Positions 30,829 through 49,038 of a stretch of 49,038 nucleotides of DNA are shown here, one piece after another (within the stretch, counting starts at the first letter, position 1; the number at the start of each line of letters is the position of its first letter). The notes under the pieces are model-generated. The model saw nothing but the letters and a program-made list of their open reading frames with translations, ran no database searches and had not been told where the DNA came from. The translations under genes were made by a program, and so were the position numbers. The stretch lies in the IMG/VR virus record IMGVR_UViG_3300022743_000287, positions 1 through 49,038 of that record; one strand, given 5' to 3'. The stretch comes from a virus.

Positions 30829-31197
30829 ATGAACACCAACCAACAGATCCTCGCCACCCAGAACGAAGCCTGGGGCTTCTGGGGCACGATGAACGAACAC
30901 TCCAGCACCGCGTGGCCCCTGGCGATGACCGCCATCTCCGACGCTACCGGCCAGCCCCTCGAATCAGTCCGGGTCTTCCTCGACAGCCGCCACGGACGCC
31001 ACTTTGCGGACGATGTGCAAAACGGGCTGTACCGGGGCCAGATCCTGGCGGACGCGATCAACGCCGCTGCCCAACAGTGGATGGGATGGACGATTGGCCG
31101 CCAGACCAGCAAGCAATACGGTATCCCGCGCGGTCTGCCCTACCTGACGGGTTTCGTGATTCACTGCGAGATCACCGACGAGTCGCTGGCCGCCTGA
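30829..31197 (+). CDS. hypothetical protein, plus-strand cassette
   Basis: A 122-residue soluble protein (MNTNQQILATQNEAWGFWGT, then SRHGRHFADDVQNGLYRGQI and WMGWTIGRQTSKQYGIPRGL). I do not recognise the family; its regular helical pattern indicates a real protein. AAGGAACC and AGAG lie just before ATG at 30829. It is the last of the three plus-strand genes, and its final 37 bases overlap the convergent methyltransferase gene. Confidence 0.7.
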   Translation: MNTNQQILATQNEAWGFWGTMNEHSSTAWPLAMTAISDATGQPLESVRVFLDSRHGRHFADDVQNGLYRGQILADAINAAAQQWMGWTIGRQTSKQYGIPRGLPYLTGFVIHCEITDESLAA

Positions 31198-32429
31198 TCG
31201 AACGTCACGCCATCCGCCTCGCGGGTGGCTTGCTTGCCCGCCCAGTCCTGCCAGCGGCGCACGATCACGTCGACGTACTTGGGGTCGAGCTCGATAAGCC
31301 GCGAGAGCCGTCCTGACTTTTCGGCGGCGATCAGCGTCGTGCCAGAACCGCCGAACGGGTCGAGTACCACGTTGCCGGGGCGGCTCGAGTTGCGGATCGC
31401 GCGCTCGACCAACTCCACCGGCTTCATCGTTGGGTGCAAATCGTTCTTGTGCGGCTTCTTGATCTGCCAGACGTCGCTCTGATCACGGTCGCCGCACCAG
31501 TGGCGCGTCGCGCCCTCGGGCCATCCATAGAGGATGGGCTCGTACTGGCGCTGGTAATCAGAGCGGCCCAGCGTGAACGTGTTCTTGGCCCAGATGACAA
31601 AGGTTGACCACTTGCCACCGGCGGCGCGGAACGCGGACTGCAGCACATCCAGTTCACTGGACGACATCGCCACGTAGATACCGCCACGGCAATGCGCGAT
31701 GGTTGGCGTCAGCGCCGCCAGCAGGAAATCGTAGAAGCCGTCGCCCAGGTTGTCGTTCAGGATCGCGCGATCCTTGCCGCGCATCTTGTCCTTGGCGCTG
31801 TTGGCGTAGTTCACGTTGTACGGCGGATCGGTGAAGACCATGTCTACCGGCTTGCCGTCGAGAACCCGGTCGTAGCTCTCAGCAACGGTGGAGTCACCGC
31901 ACAGCAGCCGGTGGCCACCCAGCACCCAGACATCACCCGGGCGCGAGATCGGCGTCTCCGACAACTCGGGCACCGCATCGTCATCGGTTTCGCCTTCGCC
32001 ATCCGGATCGTCGCCCGCCATTAACTCGGCGAGCGCATCGGCATCGAAGCCGGTCAGCGACACGTCGAAGTCGTCGTCCTGCAAGGCTGCGATCTCGATG
32101 CGCAGCATCGCGTCGTCCCAGCCCGCGTTCTCGGCGATGCGGTTGTCCGCGATCACCAGGGCCCGGCGCTGAGTCGGGCTCAGATGGTCGAGCACCACCA
32201 CCGGCACCATTTCCAGACCGAGCTTTTGAGCGGCGGCAAGCCGCCCGTGCCCGGCGACGATCACGCCGTCGCCACCGGCCAGGATCGGATTGGTGAAACC
32301 GAACTCGGCAATGGAGGCAGCAATCTGCGCCACCTGATCGTCCGAGTGGGTTCGCGCGTTACGGGCATAGGGCAGCAGCTTTGCGGTCGGCCACTGCTCG
32401 ATCTTGTCGGCAAACCAGGAAGCGGTCAT
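31161..32429 (-). CDS. ParB-domain DNA methyltransferase (beta class)
   Basis: A 422-residue fusion. Residues about 12-105 form a ParB-like nuclease-fold domain with the GHGRL box at 60-64 (VIVAGHGRLAAAQ). The methyltransferase follows: motif IV DPPY at 201-204 and motif I DPFGGSGTT at 357-365, an order that marks the beta class (N6-adenine or N4-cytosine, DPPY favouring adenine). Phage methyltransferases of this kind protect DNA from host restriction. It overlaps the second methyltransferase gene by 4 bases upstream and the convergent 122-residue gene by 37 bases downstream. Confidence 0.9.
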   Translation of the reverse strand: MTASWFADKIEQWPTAKLLPYARNARTHSDDQVAQIAASIAEFGFTNPILAGGDGVIVAGHGRLAAAQKLGLEMVPVVVLDHLSPTQRRALVIADNRIAENAGWDDAMLRIEIAALQDDDFDVSLTGFDADALAELMAGDDPDGEGETDDDAVPELSETPISRPGDVWVLGGHRLLCGDSTVAESYDRVLDGKPVDMVFTDPPYNVNYANSAKDKMRGKDRAILNDNLGDGFYDFLLAALTPTIAHCRGGIYVAMSSSELDVLQSAFRAAGGKWSTFVIWAKNTFTLGRSDYQRQYEPILYGWPEGATRHWCGDRDQSDVWQIKKPHKNDLHPTMKPVELVERAIRNSSRPGNVVLDPFGGSGTTLIAAEKSGRLSRLIELDPKYVDVIVRRWQDWAGKQATREADGVTFDQAASDSSVISQ

Positions 32430-33835
32430 TGCTCGGCCTCCGTGGTGGTCAGACGTTCATTGACCACGTCGTCGAAGGACTGGCCTGTTGCCAACAGCGT
32501 CACGGGCACGCTGGGGTGGTTCTGCTGGAAGCGCTTGATGGCGACATCCACGTACTCCGGCGCAATCTCCACGCTGCGACACACGCGACCGGTGCGCTGC
32601 GCGGCCAGCATCGTGGTGCCACTGCCGCCGAAGGGCTCGAACACAACGTCGCCGGTGTCCGAGTAGGCCTCGATCACGAACTCCGGCAGTGCTACCGGGA
32701 ACACGGCCGGGTGGTCGATGTCCTGCCCGATCTTGCCCTTGTGGCGCATCACGCGGATCACCGAGTCGGGAATCCGGGTGTCCTGTGTTGGCTGACCCTT
32801 GTGCGTCCAGCCGCCGACTTCGCCGTCCTTGCCGCGCATGGCCGTGGACGACCCGTCGGCGCGCAGGTGCGATTCCTGCCCCGCGTGTTTACAGGGCACG
32901 ATCTTGTTGGGTTTGCGACTGGCTCGGTTGAAGTGAAAGACGAACTCGAAACTTGGGGCGAAGCGACCAGCCCAGTCGCCGGGCATCCCCGGCCCCTGAT
33001 CCCAGACGTACCAAGCGAAGCGCCGCCAGCCCTGGGAGCGCATCCAGCCAAGCCACGCGTCCCAATACGGGAGGACCTCGTTGTCGCGGTGGATCAGCCC
33101 AAGGTTGACCAGCACCTGCCCGTCGTCGGTCATCGGCACCCTGGCGAACACGCCGCGCATCAGGCCATCCCAATCGGTGATGCCGCCGGAGGTGTAGTTG
33201 CGCTGGTTGCCATAGGGCGGTGAGGTGAAGCACAGCCGGGCCGAATCGTCCTGCATCAGCGTGGCGACGACTGTCGGGTCGGTGGCATCCCCACAGATCA
33301 GACGGTGGGAGCCGATGGCCCAGACATCGCCGGTGCGGGACACCGGCACGACCGGCGCAGCGGGCACATCGTCAGCAGCGTCCGGCTCGTCTGCATCGGG
33401 CTCCTGGTCGGCGTCATCGGGGTCCAGGTCGTCAGCGAGCAGTGCCTCGATCTCAGCATCCTCGAAGCCGGTCAGTGCAAGGTCATACCCAGCCTCGGAC
33501 AGCTCGGCCATTTCCAACGCCAGCATCTCCTCGTTCCAACCGGCGTCGAGCGCCAGCCGGTTGTCGGAGATGACGTAGGCGCGCTTTTGCGTCGGCGACA
33601 GATGGGCCAGTTCGATGACCGGCACTTGATCCAGCCCGAGCTTGCGCGCGGCGGCCAGACGACCGTGGCCCGCGATGATCCCGCTGTCGCCGTCCACCAG
33701 CACCGGATTCGTCCAGCCGTACTCAACGATGTTGGCGGCGATCTTGGCCACCTGCTCGTCGGTGTGCGTGCGCGGATTGCGGGCGTAGGGGATCAGCGCC
33801 TCGACCTTGCGGTACTCGACGTTGAGGGTGTTCAG
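32426..33835 (-). CDS. ParB-domain DNA methyltransferase, CTG start
   Basis: A 469-residue second ParB-methyltransferase fusion, related to its neighbour. The ParB-like box GHGRL is at 56-60, an acidic linker (DPDDADQEPDADEPDAADDV) spans about 138-157, motif IV is TSPPY near 204-208 (SPPY often marks N4-cytosine enzymes), and EPFGGSGTT lies near the C-terminus. No ATG, GTG or TTG lies at the domain start. GAGG sits 8 bases before CTG at 33835, which gives MNTLNVEYRKVEAL, a natural N-terminus; ATT at 33838 is the alternative. An in-frame ATG at 33985 would read through a terminator and operator and is unlikely. Methylation specificity cannot be read from sequence. Confidence 0.85.
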   Translation of the reverse strand: MNTLNVEYRKVEALIPYARNPRTHTDEQVAKIAANIVEYGWTNPVLVDGDSGIIAGHGRLAAARKLGLDQVPVIELAHLSPTQKRAYVISDNRLALDAGWNEEMLALEMAELSEAGYDLALTGFEDAEIEALLADDLDPDDADQEPDADEPDAADDVPAAPVVPVSRTGDVWAIGSHRLICGDATDPTVVATLMQDDSARLCFTSPPYGNQRNYTSGGITDWDGLMRGVFARVPMTDDGQVLVNLGLIHRDNEVLPYWDAWLGWMRSQGWRRFAWYVWDQGPGMPGDWAGRFAPSFEFVFHFNRASRKPNKIVPCKHAGQESHLRADGSSTAMRGKDGEVGGWTHKGQPTQDTRIPDSVIRVMRHKGKIGQDIDHPAVFPVALPEFVIEAYSDTGDVVFEPFGGSGTTMLAAQRTGRVCRSVEIAPEYVDVAIKRFQQNHPSVPVTLLATGQSFDDVVNERLTTTEAEQ

Positions 33836-33847
33836 AATCGTTTCCTC

Positions 33848-33884
33848 AAAAAAGAAAACCCGCCGACGGAAAACCGTGGGCGGG
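33848..33884 (-). terminator. intrinsic terminator at the methyltransferase start
   Basis: On the minus strand CCCGCC, C, ACGG, a TTTT loop, CCGT, C, GGCGGG (33859-33884) folds into a stem of 10 pairs with one C-C mismatch, followed by TTTTCTTTTTT. The T-run touches the GAGG ribosome-binding site of the 469-residue methyltransferase, so it may act as an attenuator of that operon rather than a simple gene end. Confidence 0.8.
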
Positions 33885-34151
33885 CTCGTGATGGGTGCGG
33901 ACTGGGGCGGGTGCAAACTGCAAACCCTGCAAACCTTGGTTTGCAGTCGGACGCTAGGCGAATGCCGCGCTCGCGCCCCCCGCATTGCGATTCGGGAAGG
34001 AAGGACCCCTTTTGCCTGGGCCTATCGCCTCAACCGTCACCGCTGTCCAGAAGATAGCCGAAATACTACCCCCGACCGGGCTGTTTTGTTGCGGGGCTGC
34101 CGGGCCTCGAAACGGACAAGCAAGGCAAAGCAAGGACAAGCGCGGCAAGCA
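33885..34151. other. non-coding leader upstream of the methyltransferase operon
   Basis: Between DUF6362 and the methyltransferase start there are 316 bases without a convincing gene. They hold the terminator at 33848-33884, the TGCAAAC repeats at 33912-33946, and near 34116-34140 a direct repeat of GGACAAGC around GCAAGGCAAAGCAA. The largest short reading frames here have poor starts and biased composition. I see no clear promoter. Confidence 0.5.
33912..33946. promoter_or_regulatory. TGCAAAC repeat cluster, operator-like
   Basis: On the plus strand TGCAAAC occurs three times in tandem (33912, 33919, 33928). The last copy forms a perfect inverted repeat, CTGCAAACC (33927-33935), TT, GGTTTGCAG (33938-33946). 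The cluster lies 28 bases upstream of the terminator stem of the methyltransferase operon. It could be a repressor or partition-type binding site, or an RNA stem competing with the terminator. Confidence 0.65.
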
Positions 34152-41970: not shown

Positions 41971-42234
41971 TCACTGGTACGCACGAGTGAAGCTCGAGTA
42001 ACGCGAGACGCGGCGCTCGAAGGCTTCGATTTCGTGCAGGAGGTATGTGACCCGACGACCGAGCTTGCAGTAGATCGGGCCAAGCTGCTCTTGACGCCAG
42101 CGGCGCAGAGTCTTGACGGAGAGCCCCCAGCGGATGGCGAGCTCGTTTTCGTCGAGGGCGATGCAGGCTGCACCGCCGGGATTCATCCGGCGGGAATTCC
42201 GACCGGATTCGATTGATGGAACTTGGGTTTGCAT
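41971..42234 (-). CDS. excisionase-like HTH_17 protein
   Basis: An 87-residue DNA-binding protein. The C-terminal two thirds (LDENELAIRWGLSVKTLRRW, RQEQLGPIYCKLGRRVTYLL, HEIEAFERRV) is the winged helix-turn-helix of excisionases and phage regulators. The start is ATG at 42234, with AGGAGG (plus-strand 42244-42249) nine bases upstream. That site lies inside an 11-bp inverted repeat, so translation or transcription may be self-regulated. It opens the replication and recombination operon. Confidence 0.82.
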   Translation of the reverse strand: MQTQVPSIESGRNSRRMNPGGAACIALDENELAIRWGLSVKTLRRWRQEQLGPIYCKLGRRVTYLLHEIEAFERRVSRYSSFTRAYQ

Positions 42235-42270
42235 TTCGATGTGCCTCCTAGATGAAATGGGCACATCGAA
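42235..42270. promoter_or_regulatory. 11-bp inverted repeat over a ribosome-binding site
   Basis: TTCGATGTGCC (42235-42245) and GGCACATCGAA (42260-42270) are perfect arms with a 14-base loop, ending one base before the ATG codon of the HTH_17 gene. The Shine-Dalgarno AGGAGG spans the loop and the start of one arm. It may be an autoregulatory operator or an RNA hairpin that limits translation. A second hairpin (CACGGG/CCCGTG, 42278-42296) and three TTTATGG copies lie just upstream. Confidence 0.7.
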
Positions 42271-42319
42271 GTCTCCGCACGGGTTTATGGCCCGTGTCTG
42301 GTTTGATTTATGGGCGCGT

Positions 42320-43276
42320 TTATGGGTTGCGTCGCAGTCGGTATTTGCCGCGCTTGACCAATGCGATCACGTCCTCGCGTTCAGCCTTTCCGCCGAAGGC
42401 GTCATCGAACGACTGGTAGCCGGTATTGGCGATCCTGTTGACCTCGGCCCAGGACACCTCTGGCGCGTTCTTCCCGTCGGCACTCCACATCTGCTTGACG
42501 ATCTTGGCGCGCTCCGCAGACAGCTCACGCGACTCGGTGAAGTGCGGCAGCTTCAGTCGATTGCCTTGGAAGAACTCAAACGGCTCTGGCGCACCGCTGG
42601 GCGTGACGTAGCCACGCAGCACCCTGTCGAATGCGTTCGCGTCGAAAACGTCCTGGCCGTCGTCCACGCGAACGAACTCGTCCAGCCAGCGCATGACATG
42701 GTCACGGGGCAGATCGACGGGATATCGCTGATGCCGCAAGACGATGCCGCCACGCGGCCAGATTGGGTCGCTCAACACCGAGGTCATCGCCGCAGCAGGA
42801 GCACGCTCCCACGCACTGGCAACGAATACCGGGGCGAAGTCGTGTGTGCCAGCGATTCGCACTTCCCCGAGGTGCCACAGGTGGCCCGGCACGCGATGTC
42901 GGCGGTCGGATCGTCGTCGATCTTCGATGCCGATCAAGGACGCCAAGTCGGCGAGCCACACATCCACCTGGAGGGCATACAGCGCGATGTCGGCAAGAGG
43001 TCGCTCAACCGTTCGTGACCGCTGCTGGGGACTGCGGTACCGGTACACCGCCGCGTCGTGATCGATCTCAACCTCGACTTCCTGCTCAGAATCCAGGACG
43101 GGCACCATCAGATGTGTGAGGTAGTCCTCTTCCGTGATCCATCGTCGCTGCATAAACGTCGGTCTGCATCGCCCGAGCTCGGCCGCCCTGACGCGGGAAT
43201 CGACCCAGGGCAGCCGCTCCAGCGCTGCCAGAAAACTCAGATGTGCCGACTTCGCGGTAGCGTCATCAGAACTCAC
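42320..43276 (-). CDS. unknown protein, second of an unrecognised pair
   Basis: A 318-residue soluble protein that I do not recognise. It begins MSSDDATAKSAHLSFLAALE, has beta-rich segments (VLDSEQEVEVEIDHDAAVYR, RSRTVERPLADIALYALQVD) and a helical C-terminus ending GKYRLRRNP. It starts with GTG at 43276, whose first bases overlap the end of the 478-residue gene by 11 bases, so the two are translated together. The pair lies between the lysogeny switch and the replication genes. Confidence 0.72.
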   Translation of the reverse strand: MSSDDATAKSAHLSFLAALERLPWVDSRVRAAELGRCRPTFMQRRWITEEDYLTHLMVPVLDSEQEVEVEIDHDAAVYRYRSPQQRSRTVERPLADIALYALQVDVWLADLASLIGIEDRRRSDRRHRVPGHLWHLGEVRIAGTHDFAPVFVASAWERAPAAAMTSVLSDPIWPRGGIVLRHQRYPVDLPRDHVMRWLDEFVRVDDGQDVFDANAFDRVLRGYVTPSGAPEPFEFFQGNRLKLPHFTESRELSAERAKIVKQMWSADGKNAPEVSWAEVNRIANTGYQSFDDAFGGKAEREDVIALVKRGKYRLRRNP

Positions 43277-44702
43277 GGAGCACCCCAATGCGCGTGAGCT
43301 GTTCCAGCACGCGCTTGCGGTCATCCTCGGTCTTGCTCTTGTCGTTCAGGCCGTTCGGCGACGTGATTTGGACAGCAACGTTGTGGGCCTTGCGGTGCGG
43401 CTGTTTGGCCATTCGGAACACCAGCTTCACCTGCGCCAGCGTGTAGCCCGTCAGGTCGTCGACGCCATAGTCGTCGTAGGCAACCTGATAAATCTGGCGG
43501 GCGTCGCGTCGATCCTTGCCGATCAGCATCGTGCTCGACAGGTGTTGGATCAACTCACGCCCGTTGGCAGCGTCGGTGGTTTGCTGCTCGAAGGGCCGGG
43601 CAACTTTGATCTGCAGGATCGAAATCTTTTCGATGCCCGCCACACGCTCCTGCTCAATGCGCTTGAGCATCGCCGGTGTCGAGAAGCCGAACAGGTCGAA
43701 CTCGCGCATCGGCATGTCATTGATCTCCCCGTCGCACGCCAAGACGACATCGCGGAAGATGGTCGCCAGTTCACGGCGCACCTCACGGTCTTCGCAGAAC
43801 ACGCCGAGCGCACCAGTGCCGGGCTCCCACGAGAAGCTGGCCGACATCGCTGCAGGCTCTTCGTGCTCGACCACCTCGCCGTTCGCAACCTGCCGGAAGT
43901 GCGCCATCGATCCATTGAAGGTTGCAGTCAGGGTGTGCAAGAGCACGGGCGTGACCTCATCGGCGTCCTTTCCGCCGCAGCGGTCGGCATGCGCGAGATC
44001 ACGGCGCGTGAACTGCTCGATGAGGATCTGGTCAGAAGCCACTTGCGGGAACAGCGCCGAAATGCGCCCGCGCAACACCCCCTCCACGTCGGCATCAATG
44101 CTCGGCACCACGCCCTTCGGGCCAAGGTAGTGGCTGGAGTAGTTCTCGCTTTTCCACTGCCGATGCATCACCTGCAAGCGCTCGGCGTTGTCGAAACGCT
44201 GATCGCGCTTGGCACCGGCCTCCGGAAAATCCTGCCGCAGACAGAGGTGCAGGGCCCGGCTATACCGGTCACTGGGCGTGGCCAAGACGGCAGCGTCGCT
44301 GGCGTCTTGGTCGTCAAGGAGGGATTGGACGGCCTGCGTGCCGTACTCGTCATCGAGCAGCACCACGCGCTCGGCCGCACGCTCGATGTGCTGCTGGACG
44401 TCCGAGCCAAGTTTGGCGACGGCGTGGAACATCGCCCTGCGGGACTGCACCGCGAGGATGCCTTTGGCCGCATCCGTAAGCGCTGCCAGTTCCGGCAGCG
44501 AAGTGGCGCTGGCACGTTCGACCAGGAGCAAGGCGAGGCCGGGACGCTTGGCTTTGCGCACCACGGTGACGAAGTGCTCCATGCACGGCAGGATTTCCGG
44601 GCCATCGTCGGATTGACGGGGTCGCACCTGCTTCGAGGACTGCTGCTGCGCGGCTGTCGACTCGTCGTGTTCCTGGGCGGTGATCTGTTCGTCTGCTGGC
44701 AT
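43266..44702 (-). CDS. unknown protein, first of an unrecognised pair
   Basis: A 478-residue soluble protein with no motif I can assign. The N-terminal 35 residues are polar and glutamine-rich; helices follow (LPELAALTDAAKGILAVQSR). A central region is DADVEGVLRGRISALFPQVA. The C-terminal third is well ordered (FDLFGFSTPAMLKRIEQERV, TDAANGRELIQHLSSTMLIG) and ends in a helical LEQLTRIGVLREF. ATG at 44702 was chosen because AAGGA lies 8 bases upstream. It is the first gene after the terminator at 44762-44785 and has an operator-like site upstream, so it is likely controlled by the Xre repressor. Confidence 0.75.
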   Translation of the reverse strand: MPADEQITAQEHDESTAAQQQSSKQVRPRQSDDGPEILPCMEHFVTVVRKAKRPGLALLLVERASATSLPELAALTDAAKGILAVQSRRAMFHAVAKLGSDVQQHIERAAERVVLLDDEYGTQAVQSLLDDQDASDAAVLATPSDRYSRALHLCLRQDFPEAGAKRDQRFDNAERLQVMHRQWKSENYSSHYLGPKGVVPSIDADVEGVLRGRISALFPQVASDQILIEQFTRRDLAHADRCGGKDADEVTPVLLHTLTATFNGSMAHFRQVANGEVVEHEEPAAMSASFSWEPGTGALGVFCEDREVRRELATIFRDVVLACDGEINDMPMREFDLFGFSTPAMLKRIEQERVAGIEKISILQIKVARPFEQQTTDAANGRELIQHLSSTMLIGKDRRDARQIYQVAYDDYGVDDLTGYTLAQVKLVFRMAKQPHRKAHNVAVQITSPNGLNDKSKTEDDRKRVLEQLTRIGVLREF

Positions 44703-44733: not shown

Positions 44734-44750
44734 ATTGCGCGAGTGGTTAA
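44734..44750. promoter_or_regulatory. operator-like site A, ahead of the 478-residue gene
   Basis: ATTGCGCGAGTGGTTAA matches site B at the Xre gene (ATTGCGTGATTAGTTAA, 45947-45963) at 14 of 17 positions, in the same orientation. It lies 32 bases before the start codon and just after a terminator. A weak promoter (TTGAAC about 18 bases from CGCAAT on the minus strand) may overlap it. Confidence 0.6.
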
Positions 44751-44761
44751 CTGAGAGGTTC

Positions 44762-44785
44762 AAAAAATGCCGACACGCGGTCGGC
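44762..44785 (-). terminator. intrinsic terminator after the ImmA gene
   Basis: On the minus strand GCCGAC, CGCGT, GTCGGC (stem 44769-44785) is followed by ATTTTTT, 19 bases after the metalloprotease stop. It separates the repressor operon from the unknown pair. Confidence 0.82.
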
Positions 44786-44804: not shown

Positions 44805-45656
44805 TCAGGCGATCTTGGCCCCCGGCTTGAGAAGGCCATAGCGCTCCATCCTGACTTGGATGAATCGCCGGTTGACGCCGAAGCGCTTGGCCACGGCCTT
44901 CTGCAAACATTCGATGTCGAAGAACCCGATATCGCCATCAGCCGTCAGGTGAAGGCAGGTGCCGGGCAAATCCGGATCAAGCGACGGGCTGCGATGGATC
45001 GTCACACCGTGTTTCGGAGCCAACTCTTCGACCGCCAGATTCAGGCGTTGGCGCGGCACCAGCAACGACCCCATGAACTCGTTGGCACGCAGCTCGGCGA
45101 AGTATTCTTCCTTGGTGGTGTGGCCTGGAATCGCCAGAGAGGGGGTCGCTGCCGCATCGACGACGGGCGGGACTTTCGCCAAATGATCCACGTCGCGGGT
45201 GGTCGTGCGGTAGGCCCGCCGCGCCGCATCGTTGGGGTCATCGAACAGCCCCGGCCCTTTGCTGGCATCAACGATCCATCCCGGAGCATCGAAGATGGCG
45301 TGGCCGAGCTCGTGCCCGAGGGTGCTCAGTACCAGCTCCTCGCTGGCATTCACGCCAACCGGTGACACCGACACCATCGCGGTGTCCGGCACGCCAGGAT
45401 CGTACTCACAGATGCCCAGGACAGGGTTCCCGCGCTCGTCATGCACGACGTCACCGGTGCCGACGAACAGGTCGAATACCACGCCGTTGATCTTCAGGCC
45501 GGAGATGGCGCTCAGGGTGGCGAGCGAGATGGCATCGGCAGCAGCATCCACCAGTTGCTGGCGGGCCAGGACGGCGATGCCCTCAATCTCGGAATTCTTG
45601 ATGTAGCTGGGGCGTTTTCGGTCGCAATGCCGGTAGCCAAGAGTCAACACCGGCAT
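44805..45656 (-). CDS. ImmA/IrrE family metallopeptidase
   Basis: A 283-residue zinc-dependent protease with HELGH at 115-119 (LSTLGHELGHAIFDAPGW) and a downstream AELRANEF segment (residues about 184-191) that supplies the further zinc ligand region. In ICEBs1 and many prophages such enzymes cleave or inactivate the partner Xre repressor in response to DNA damage or signals. ATG at 45656 follows the Xre stop directly (TGAATG), with GGGGA upstream. It is read from the promoter at 45972-46000 and ends at a terminator. Confidence 0.9.
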   Translation of the reverse strand: MPVLTLGYRHCDRKRPSYIKNSEIEGIAVLARQQLVDAAADAISLATLSAISGLKINGVVFDLFVGTGDVVHDERGNPVLGICEYDPGVPDTAMVSVSPVGVNASEELVLSTLGHELGHAIFDAPGWIVDASKGPGLFDDPNDAARRAYRTTTRDVDHLAKVPPVVDAAATPSLAIPGHTTKEEYFAELRANEFMGSLLVPRQRLNLAVEELAPKHGVTIHRSPSLDPDLPGTCLHLTADGDIGFFDIECLQKAVAKRFGVNRRFIQVRMERYGLLKPGAKIA

Positions 45657-45935
45657 TCACTTGTCCCCCGTCGCTTGCTTGCGATACATCCGTACCAGGC
45701 CCCCCACGTCGTCGCGCATGTCTGGCGGAAGGCGGCTGGCCTCAACAAAGGCGTCGTCGACATTCTCGCCAAGGATTTCTGCCGCCTTGCGGATCAGCTC
45801 GTCCTTGGGCGGCTTCTCGATGTCGCGCTCTATGCGCGACCAGTAGGCAGGCGAGATGTCCAGCTGCCGGGCGAAGTCATTCATCTGAATGCCCTTCGCC
45901 TCCCTCTTCTGTCTGATGTAGGCACCAAATGCCAT
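45657..45935 (-). CDS. Xre-family repressor
   Basis: A 92-residue helix-turn-helix regulator, MAFGAYIRQKREAKGIQMND, with the recognition region ARQLDISPAYWSRIERDIEK and a helical tail. It is the likely prophage repressor, partner of the ImmA protease. ATG at 45935 gives the family-like start; an upstream TTG is less likely. The operator-like sites at 45947-45963 and 46007-46020 flank its promoter. Confidence 0.88.
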   Translation of the reverse strand: MAFGAYIRQKREAKGIQMNDFARQLDISPAYWSRIERDIEKPPKDELIRKAAEILGENVDDAFVEASRLPPDMRDDVGGLVRMYRKQATGDK

Positions 45936-45946
45936 GTTGTGACCCA

Positions 45947-45963
45947 ATTGCGTGATTAGTTAA
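45947..45963. promoter_or_regulatory. operator-like site B at the Xre gene
   Basis: ATTGCGTGATTAGTTAA lies between the promoter's expected start site and the Xre start codon, and matches site A. A third related element, ATTGCGCGTTAACG on the minus strand (46007-46020), holds the palindrome CGTTAACG and lies just upstream of the -35 box. Binding by Xre here would give autoregulation. Confidence 0.6.
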
Positions 45964-45971
45964 TTGACGCC

Positions 45972-46000
45972 ATCGTATCGAGCAGATCGGTGCCTGTCAA
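45972..46000 (-). promoter_or_regulatory. sigma70-type promoter for the repressor operon
   Basis: On the minus strand TTGACA (45995-46000), a 17-base spacer and TACGAT (45972-45977) match the sigma70 consensus closely and point at the Xre gene, 37 bases further on. It is the clearest promoter found in the window. Confidence 0.82.
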
Positions 46001-46006
46001 CTGTTT

Positions 46007-46020
46007 CGTTAACGCGCAAT
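46007..46020. promoter_or_regulatory. palindromic operator-like site C
   Basis: CGTTAACGCGCAAT on the plus strand combines the perfect palindrome CGTTAACG with the reverse complement of ATTGCGCG found in site A. It ends 6 bases upstream of the -35 box of the repressor promoter. Confidence 0.5.
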
Positions 46021-46806: not shown

Positions 46807-48191
46807 AAGATGCCGTCCAAATCGCCTCTCCCAAGGCACGCAAACGCTGCGCCGTCTACTGCCGGGTGTCGTCGGACGAGCGCCTTGACCAGGAGTTCAA
46901 CTCCATCGACGCGCAGAAGGAAGCTGGCCACGCGTATGTCGCCAGCCAGCGCGCCGAGGGCTGGATTCCGGTGGCCGACGACTACGACGACCCCGGCTTC
47001 TCCGGCGGCAACACGGATCGGCCGGGGCTAAAACGCCTGATGGCCGACATTGAGCGCGGCCAGATCGACATCGTGGTGGTCTACAAGATCGACCGCCTGA
47101 CGCGCAGCCTTGCCGACTTCTCCAAGATGGTCGAGGTGTTTGAGCGCCACGGCGTGTCGTTCGTGTCGGTCACGCAGCAGTTCAATACCACCACATCGAT
47201 GGGGCGGCTGATGCTCAACGTGCTGCTGTCCTTCGCCCAGTTCGAGCGCGAGGTCACCGGCGAGCGCATCCGCGACAAGATCGCTGCCAGCAAGCGCAAA
47301 GGGATGTGGATGGGTGGCGTGCCGCCGCTCGGCTTCGACGTCGAGAACCGTCTGCTGGTCATCAACGACACCGAGGCGGCGGTGGTGCGGCGCATCTTCG
47401 AGGAGATGCTGACCATCGGCTCGCCCACCCAGATTGCCGCCAACCTGACTCTGGATGGCATCACCACCAAGGCGTGGACGACACAGGACGGTCAGACACG
47501 GGCAGGCACGCGCATCGACAAGAAGTACCTGCACAAGCTGCTGCGCAACCGCATCTACCTCGGGGAGTTGTCGCACAAGGGCAGTTGGTACCCGGGCGTG
47601 CATCAAGCCATCATCGATCCCGGGCTGTGGGGCCGGGTTCACGAGGTGCTGGCCAAGGATGGCCACACTCGGTCGGTCGAGACCAAGATCAGGTCGCGCA
47701 CCGACGCGTTGTTGCGCGGCCTGCTGTACGCGCCCTCGGGTGAACGGATGTACCCGACCTACTCGCGCAAGAACGGGCGCAAGTACCACTACTACGTGTC
47801 CAAGTCGGAAGCGCGCTTCGGCGCGCCGGGCAAGAGCTACGAGCGCCTGCCCGCGCCGGAGATCGAGGGGGCGGTGGTGGCCCAGATCCGAACGGTGCTG
47901 ACCAGCCCGGAGACCGTGGCGTCGGTGGTGCGGCACATTCAACGCAACGGGGCCCAGATCGACGAGGCCACCACCGTGATGGCGATGGGACGCCTCAACA
48001 ACGTGTGGGATCAACTGTTCCCGGTCGAGCGCCACCGCATCGCCAATCTGATGATCGAGCGCATCGACCTCGTCCACGCGGGCGAGGTGCAGGGGATCAA
48101 GGTGAAGTGGCGTGAGGTAGGTTGGAACGCGCTCATCGAAGATTTCGCCCCGGACAGCATTGGTGCTGAACTGCTGGAGGTCGAAGCCTGA
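46803..48191 (+). CDS. large serine recombinase
   Basis: A 462-residue site-specific recombinase. The N-terminal resolvase domain has the catalytic serine in AVYCRVSSDE (Ser23), IDIVVVYKIDRLTRSLADFS and the long helix region around MLNVLLSFAQFEREVTGERI. The Recombinase domain follows (RKGMWMGGVPPLGFDVENRL), then a basic segment. The C-terminal part lacks a clear zinc ribbon cysteine set. It could be the prophage integrase or belong to a separate island; its strand is opposite to the phage genes. It is co-transcribed with DUF2924 and two downstream genes. Confidence 0.92.
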   Translation: MKDAVQIASPKARKRCAVYCRVSSDERLDQEFNSIDAQKEAGHAYVASQRAEGWIPVADDYDDPGFSGGNTDRPGLKRLMADIERGQIDIVVVYKIDRLTRSLADFSKMVEVFERHGVSFVSVTQQFNTTTSMGRLMLNVLLSFAQFEREVTGERIRDKIAASKRKGMWMGGVPPLGFDVENRLLVINDTEAAVVRRIFEEMLTIGSPTQIAANLTLDGITTKAWTTQDGQTRAGTRIDKKYLHKLLRNRIYLGELSHKGSWYPGVHQAIIDPGLWGRVHEVLAKDGHTRSVETKIRSRTDALLRGLLYAPSGERMYPTYSRKNGRKYHYYVSKSEARFGAPGKSYERLPAPEIEGAVVAQIRTVLTSPETVASVVRHIQRNGAQIDEATTVMAMGRLNNVWDQLFPVERHRIANLMIERIDLVHAGEVQGIKVKWREVGWNALIEDFAPDSIGAELLEVEA

Positions 48192-48562
48192 TGGATGAGT
48201 CGATGGAAACCTTTGTGCCCCTGACGTTTCGCCGACGGGGCGTCCAACGCGTGGCTGCCGACGACCGGAACATCCACGACGTGACACTGCTCGACGGTGT
48301 GGCACGCGCCTTCTACTGGCAGCATCTGCTGGACACCGGCGCGATGCAAAGCGGGTCGGCCATCGCCCGCGCCGAGAAACTGCACCACTCGGTGGTCAAC
48401 GAACTGCTGCGCCTGACCCTGCTGGCCCCCGACATCATTGAGCAGTTCATGGCGGGCAAGCAGCCACGTCGGTTGACGCTGATGTGGTTTCAGCGAAACC
48501 GCCTGATGGTGGACTGGCACGCTCAGCGCCAGCTCATGGCCAGTTTTGAGGAGGATGTGTGA
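48191..48562 (+). CDS. recombinase-associated DNA-binding-like protein 1
   Basis: A 123-residue protein, paralogous to the next gene: both have METF(V/L)PxTxxRRG near the start, a (Y/H)WQ(H/R)LLD(T/E)G helix, and a ParB/KorB-like helix-turn-helix region (here AIARAEKLHHSVVNELLRLT, then LLAPDIIEQFMAG). A role as DNA-binding or directionality helper for the recombinase is inferred from the operon. ATG at 48191 overlaps the recombinase stop as TGATG. Confidence 0.72.
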   Translation: MDESMETFVPLTFRRRGVQRVAADDRNIHDVTLLDGVARAFYWQHLLDTGAMQSGSAIARAEKLHHSVVNELLRLTLLAPDIIEQFMAGKQPRRLTLMWFQRNRLMVDWHAQRQLMASFEEDV

Positions 48563-49038
48563 GCAAGAAGCATCGCGGCCACGCCAGGGGTGTCCCAGTG
48601 ACGTATCAGACGCCGCTGCCTGCTGGCGGCGTGCAGATGGAGACCTTCCTGCCCTGGACGCTGGTGCGCCGGGGTCTGAAGAAGCAGGTCATCACCCCGC
48701 TGGACGCGCCGCAAGAGTTTCTGGACGAAGCCCGCCGCGAACGACTGGTGCGCGAGATGGCGCAGGACACCCCATTGATGCGGGCGCTCGGCCTCGCGCA
48801 CCACTGGCAGCGTCTACTGGACGAAGGACGGTTCAGTTCGATGACCGAGATTGCGGCGGCCGAAGGCATTGGCCTCGGCCAAGCGAGCAAGATGAGCCGA
48901 CTGGCACAACTGGCCCCCGACTTGATCGAAGCCATCGCCCTGGGACGTCTCGAGGTGGGCGTCAGCCAGTTGCTGCGCGGCAGGTTGTCGGCGTCCTGGC
49001 TGGCGCAACGCGAGGCGCTGGTGGCAGGCTCGCGCTGA
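48559..49038 (+). CDS. recombinase-associated DNA-binding-like protein 2
   Basis: A 159-residue protein with a basic N-terminal extension (MSKKHRGHARGVPV) before the part shared with its neighbour. Its helix-turn-helix region is clearer: EIAAAEGIGLGQASKMSRLA, then QLAPDLIEAIALGRL, as in KorB/ParB-type proteins. It starts with GTG at 48559 (GTGA overlap, GAGGAGG just upstream) and ends at the last base of the window. The tandem duplication suggests a heteromeric accessory factor. Confidence 0.72.
   Translation: MSKKHRGHARGVPVTYQTPLPAGGVQMETFLPWTLVRRGLKKQVITPLDAPQEFLDEARRERLVREMAQDTPLMRALGLAHHWQRLLDEGRFSSMTEIAAAEGIGLGQASKMSRLAQLAPDLIEAIALGRLEVGVSQLLRGRLSASWLAQREALVAGSR

Follow-up and report, generated by a model that had tools for sequence, protein, structure and literature searches.

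A conserved gene pair between a phage lysogeny switch and its early operon as a possible DNA-binding control complex

The window analysed here is the whole 49,038-nt stretch of IMG/VR virus record IMGVR_UViG_3300022743_000287, and it raises the question of what two genes placed directly behind an Xre/ImmA lysogeny switch do. An initial annotation had described two motif-less reading frames of 478 and 318 residues, overlapping by 11 bases, and had suggested a superinfection-exclusion or abortive-infection system, or an early regulator. Both reading frames are present: P1 (478 aa, ATG start, 43266..44702) and P2 (318 aa, GTG start, 42320..43276) lie on the minus strand, like the switch, iteron, hairpin and alpA features below, and share 11 bp; were P2 to start at the in-frame ATG further upstream (43324), it would have 334 aa. 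Upstream lie the gene for an Xre/HTH_3 repressor (domain match, 45657..45947) and that for an ImmA-like metallopeptidase with a HELGH motif and a Peptidase_M78 score below the cut-off (44805..45656). Downstream, alpA encodes an AlpA/HTH_17-like regulator (41971..42264, likely ATG start at 42234) and is the first gene after an array of iterons; Sak4-like, SSB-like and D5-type primase genes are encoded in the same early operon. In 48 IMG/VR relatives (identity 61-98% for nearly all) both frames are intact and the order xre-immA-P1-P2-alpA-g41477-sak4 is kept, given a long enough contig, with SerRec-DUF2924 on the xre side. We concluded that P1 and P2 are real genes because both the frames and the gene order are kept. 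Elsewhere in the window, positions 31161-33985 hold two neighbouring genes that both encode a DNA methylase domain and match ParB_N weakly, and two small, apparently mutually related genes after the serine recombinase (48191-49038) are kept with it in most relatives.

As the initial annotation had remarked, the two proteins carry no placeable motifs: neither matched Pfam, NCBIfam or PADLOC above cut-off, and both window proteins gave insignificant scores against PHROGs. No PHROG or Pfam family was matched by the P2 relatives. The family phrog_37634 (unknown function) includes divergent P1 homologues and matches 23 of the 26 P1 family members, the window P1 being too divergent for a significant match. 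PDB sequence searches with single proteins and with profiles returned chance-level matches only, and a catalytic motif or known effector domain is absent from both. P1 consists of a disordered N-terminus (about 1-33), a helical domain (34-184) and a beta-rich C-terminal half that ends in PNGLNDKSK (PNGCNLKSK in other groups). P2 is composed of N-terminal helices, a beta barrel, an LWxLG middle domain and a C-terminal predicted winged helix (about 254-314), modelled as helix-helix-helix-wing. The P2 model (pLDDT 86, pTM 0.69) is stronger than that of P1 (pLDDT 78, pTM 0.41). Foldseek found nothing below E 1e-3 for P2 in the PDB and viral models, with no known fold for the whole protein; the best P1 hit, CENP-N/Chl4 (E 1.2e-3), was dropped in view of a TM score of about 0.2 and the uncertain domain arrangement (pTM 0.41). 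Structure and remote-homology comparison thus revealed no known replication or recombination fold.

The position of the pair behind the switch, also described initially, was borne out. An intrinsic terminator (44769..44785) separates immA from P1 and is kept in 14/14 aligned loci. The operator-like site upstream of P1 (O1, TTAACCACTCGCGCAAT, 44734..44750) has a second copy between the xre promoter and xre (O2, TTAACTAATCACGCAAT, 45947..45963), and a related site, TTGCGCGTTAAC (46008..46019), lies beside the xre -35 element (TTGACA at 46000). The consensus TTAACnAnTCRCGCAAT occurs exactly twice in the window, against 0 expected from shuffled sequence. Among the relatives, 43 of 44 carry it upstream of P1 and 37 of 40 upstream of xre; the 524 kb contain 80 matches, every one of them at one of these two positions. 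If Xre represses at this shared operator, the pair would be silent in an undisturbed lysogen, which does not agree well with constitutive superinfection exclusion. The regulators found beside P1-P2 in the genomes of relatives are Xre (23 loci), ImmA (22), LexA-like (7) and WYL (2) proteins, and at several loci the LexA gene overlaps or abuts P1. In one contig (L170/L215, 4241-4744) P1 is missing and only a remnant of P2 is left; both operators are retained.

Of 398 genomes sampled from one phylum, 26 (about 6.5%) yielded divergent relatives with a P1 profile, as did 19 of 48 genomes of one class; single-sequence scans of viral contigs gave few or no relatives. Gene calling on unannotated contigs was rough and some ORFs are antisense artefacts; the conclusions drawn here are based on homology searches. 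P2 follows P1 in the fetched regions wherever the contig permits, with a few degraded or too divergent exceptions; the two are always together, sometimes fused, and form one conserved unit, in agreement with the operon proposed at the outset. At 16 related phage loci with the same flanking genes the pair is a single protein of 740-760 aa, which aligns in hhalign with P1 (E 2e-31 over 386 columns) and P2 (E 8e-25 over 306 columns) in the order of the separate genes. Acidithiobacillus phage AcaML1, described as a prophage of A. caldus (PMC3826726), also encodes such a fusion as gp6, in the annotated order gp8-gp7-gp6. At most fusion loci one of two PIN-like genes and an HTH or Xre-ImmA gene precede the fused P1-P2. 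One PIN-like family passes the PIN_3 cut-off; the other is without a Pfam match and is called PIN solely from a DTNVILE motif. At L209, L253 and L284 (AcaML1 gp6-gp8) a PIN-like gene plus an HTH or Xre-ImmA fusion gene replaces the usual switch before the P1-P2 fusion. In this HTH-PIN-fusion group the fusion gene points away from alpA and has no clear iterons behind it.

More distant P1-P2 pairs (hhalign E 7e-30 for P1 and 4e-8 for P2) precede a primase-like gene in integrative elements. Two such elements (L135, 8123-13310; L136, 624-5502) carry the pair before a primase-like gene, an AlpA-like gene and a tyrosine integrase, and their P2 has a CxxC zinc-ribbon-like motif. Presence and absence were scored at 107 informative loci found through immA or sak4. 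An obvious split pair is missing at 42 of them, of which 16 have the fusion and a few hold divergent or partial copies. In a group with immA at about 39% identity, P1-P2 gives way to a 191-aa protein encoded behind a related Xre-ImmA pair, for example at L196 6902-7477 and its relatives; this protein resembles sigma factors weakly, with a Pfam score below cut-off and a PHROG E of 2e-5. At another 16 loci DUF2924-SerRec lies directly upstream of alpA and P1-P2 is not in view, even with a Sak4 of 89-96% identity; we therefore assign the pair to the switch region and not to the recombination genes.

Next, we consider the DNA behind P2. Four iterons with a period of about 12 bp (CCCATAAAC, CCCATAAAT, ACCAGACAC and CCATAAACC; 42280..42326) lie in the gap between P2 and alpA, the first overlapping the P2 stop codon. 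Across 51 distinct loci the P2 winged helix falls into three types, each with its own iteron type (51/51): type A with CCATAAA (28/28, including L031, which a strict pattern had first placed elsewhere), type B with CCGTA/CCGGA, in the form CCGTA(CCGGA) (6/6), and type C with TCCGGA (17/17). Repeats within one array vary jointly. The covariation persists when the rest of P2 is taken into account (partial Mantel r 0.69; 0 of 2000 permutations reach it). Between L012 and L014 the N-terminal part of P2 is 97% identical, the C-terminus 45% identical and the iteron type switched; a second case is seen between L025/L026/L031 and L027, with P2 N-terminal parts 85-87% identical. There are thus apparently at least two joint winged-helix/iteron swaps on otherwise similar P2 backbones. 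The winged helix is encoded right beside the iterons, and linkage, with the two transferred together, is therefore a real alternative for part of the covariation; the flank correlation in this comparison is 0.88, and only about two independent swaps are clear. Tandem repeats with a lag of 10-13 were found downstream of P2 at 12 of 31 loci, nearly all from other groups, compared with 7 of 93 random regions; the remaining 19 did not pass the test. Phased repeats behind P2 in other groups occur for example at L098, L105, L106, L113, L117, L120 and L130. On the window, this lag test left out the first iteron because its starting point was behind the P2 stop codon.

The same gap contains a conserved hairpin, TTCGATGTGCC-N14-GGCACATCGAA (42235..42270), a perfect 11-bp inverted repeat whose loop holds the alpA Shine-Dalgarno sequence. 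Its RNA fold is better than 200/200 shuffles (z -3.1), and translation of alpA may be controlled via this hairpin. No alpA promoter was identified.

At three bacterial loci, one of them on a Candidatus Tenderia electrophaga plasmid, MultiUb, JAB and E1/ThiF genes begin about 140-160 bp behind P1-P2. These five-gene P1-P2-MultiUb-JAB-E1 operons (L050 9839-12286, L051 and L052) come from the plasmid and two Gammaproteobacteria assemblies, and one of them adjoins a type I restriction system. The pair stays with the MultiUb operon across the three loci although the outer flanks differ, and the P2-MultiUb gap contains three TTCACA-type repeats that alone are at most marginally significant. P1-P2 precedes a Bub operon in these three bacterial loci only, most copies being in phage early regions. 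Known regulators that stand ahead of Bub and CBASS operons and react to DNA damage are CapW, CapH+CapP and CapK+CapS (PMC13373217). P1-P2 resembles CapK+CapS and VapK-VapS-VapC of that study in being an adjacent gene pair whose second member ends in a winged helix (predicted for P2), in lying, at those three loci, upstream of Bub operons, in having a variant linked to a PIN/VapC protein, and in having sites, here candidate sites, near the gene pair. However, CapK is an HTH-STAS-GHKL kinase and CapS a STAS-wHTH protein, whereas the layout of P2 is different and neither Pfam nor Foldseek gave a STAS or GHKL match in P1 or P2; the sites of CapK+CapS are palindromes and those of P1-P2 four phased direct repeats. 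Because the STAS and GHKL domains are absent, we place P1-P2 outside the CapK+CapS, CapW and CapH+CapP families. ImmR/ImmA and CapH/CapP share with the window an Xre repressor and an M78 peptidase next to an operon, with shared operators, but they are the upstream regulators, and P1-P2 is what such regulators appear to control.

Taken together, we favour, with a probability of about 0.5, the reading in which the switch controls a P1-P2 complex and this complex, bound to the iterons, governs the operon that follows. P1 and P2 would form one complex, and this would be what the operon behind the lysogeny switch produces first. Xre would repress this operon through the operator common to its own gene, and upon DNA damage ImmA would remove Xre so that P1-P2 is made; the damage trigger is an analogy drawn from ImmR/ImmA and CapH/CapP. 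P2 would then attach through its C-terminal winged helix to the four iterons, which lie in helical phase in the P2-alpA gap, and the bound complex would control transcription downstream, of the phage early genes here and of the ubiquitin-like operon in the three bacterial loci, with P1 as partner or sensor. The assignment of proteins to sites, the direction of control and the part given to P1 are what we infer. The reading builds on features observed directly in the sequences: the two genes are inseparable and fusible, the winged helix covaries with the iterons, and the operator is shared with xre. It builds further on the exchangeability of the neighbouring regulators (Xre+ImmA, LexA, WYL), on the sigma-like protein that replaces P1-P2 in a related group, and on CapW, CapH+CapP and CapK+CapS preceding Bub operons (PMC13373217). 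It is weakened by the possible linkage, by the failure to identify an alpA promoter, by the HTH-PIN-fusion group, whose fusion points away from alpA without clear iterons, and by the 19 of 31 other-group loci that fail the tandem-repeat test. The early-regulator part of the initial proposal is thus favoured by the covariation and the shared operator, and superinfection exclusion or abortive infection, for which no direct support emerged, is hinted at by the PIN-domain and MultiUb contexts only.

Iterons are a hallmark of replication origins as well, which also weakens the regulator reading, and the main rival, which we consider unlikely, is that P1-P2 is a replication initiator and the iterons its origin. 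In phage lambda, the O protein recognises four ori iterons, and its type-specific recognition segment swaps with its sites. P1-P2 likewise has four phased iterons beside the gene and a type-specific segment that swaps with them, but the recognition segment is C-terminal, the period is 11-12 bp, there is no sequence match to lambda O, and an AT-rich unwinding region is lacking (the GC minimum near the iterons is about 0.53, like that of other intergenic regions). An initiator would suit the Sak4-like, SSB-like and D5-type primase genes of the early operon, the primase-like gene behind the distant pairs, and the location of the three Bub cases on or near mobile elements. It fits poorly with the phages that share a closely similar Sak4 yet have no P1-P2 upstream of alpA, with the retention of the pair beside MultiUb while the outer flanks differ, and with its travelling together with repressors and PIN genes.

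Rather improbable, in our judgement, is that the prophage uses P1-P2 as a defence or toxin-antitoxin-like module, produced upon damage or infection and comparable to RexAB behind cI. Lambda RexAB is also two genes behind a repressor gene; P1-P2 differs in having its own operator, in lying on the early-operon side and in showing no sequence match. The PIN-like and HTH or Xre-ImmA genes before most fusions, the position at the head of the MultiUb/JAB/E1 operons, and neighbouring regulators of the kinds used by CBASS and Bub operons speak for such a module, but the PADLOC library gave no match and the shared operator predicts silence in lysogens. A dedicated defence function was set aside since the searches revealed neither a catalytic motif nor a known effector domain and the pair keeps one fixed place across the whole phage family instead of being swapped like cargo. 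TubR and ParR bind phased repeats at the centromeres tubC and parC, and the 11-12 bp phased direct repeats together with a winged helix recall these sites; the weak Foldseek similarity of P1 to CENP-N/Chl4 would also fit such a role. A partition or segregation complex with P2 as the repeat-binding protein is nevertheless very improbable: the conserved pair has no motor NTPase, P1 has no nucleotide-binding match above cut-off in Pfam, and the hosts are integrated prophages.

Returning to the regulator reading, P1-P2 may, with somewhat less than even probability, represent an undescribed and widespread kind of control complex that binds DNA in mobile elements and has an exchangeable winged-helix/iteron specificity cassette; the complex would be wired to phage early operons, PIN toxin genes and ubiquitin-like immune operons under interchangeable DNA-damage regulators. 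If the regulator reading is true, it would give a function to two unnamed families present in about 6.5% of the sampled genomes of one phylum, and a protein/DNA-site pair whose specificity changes by domain swap; the three iteron types provide binding predictions for all three at once. It would also tie a phage group's lysogeny switch to the way in which bacterial ubiquitin-like operons are controlled.
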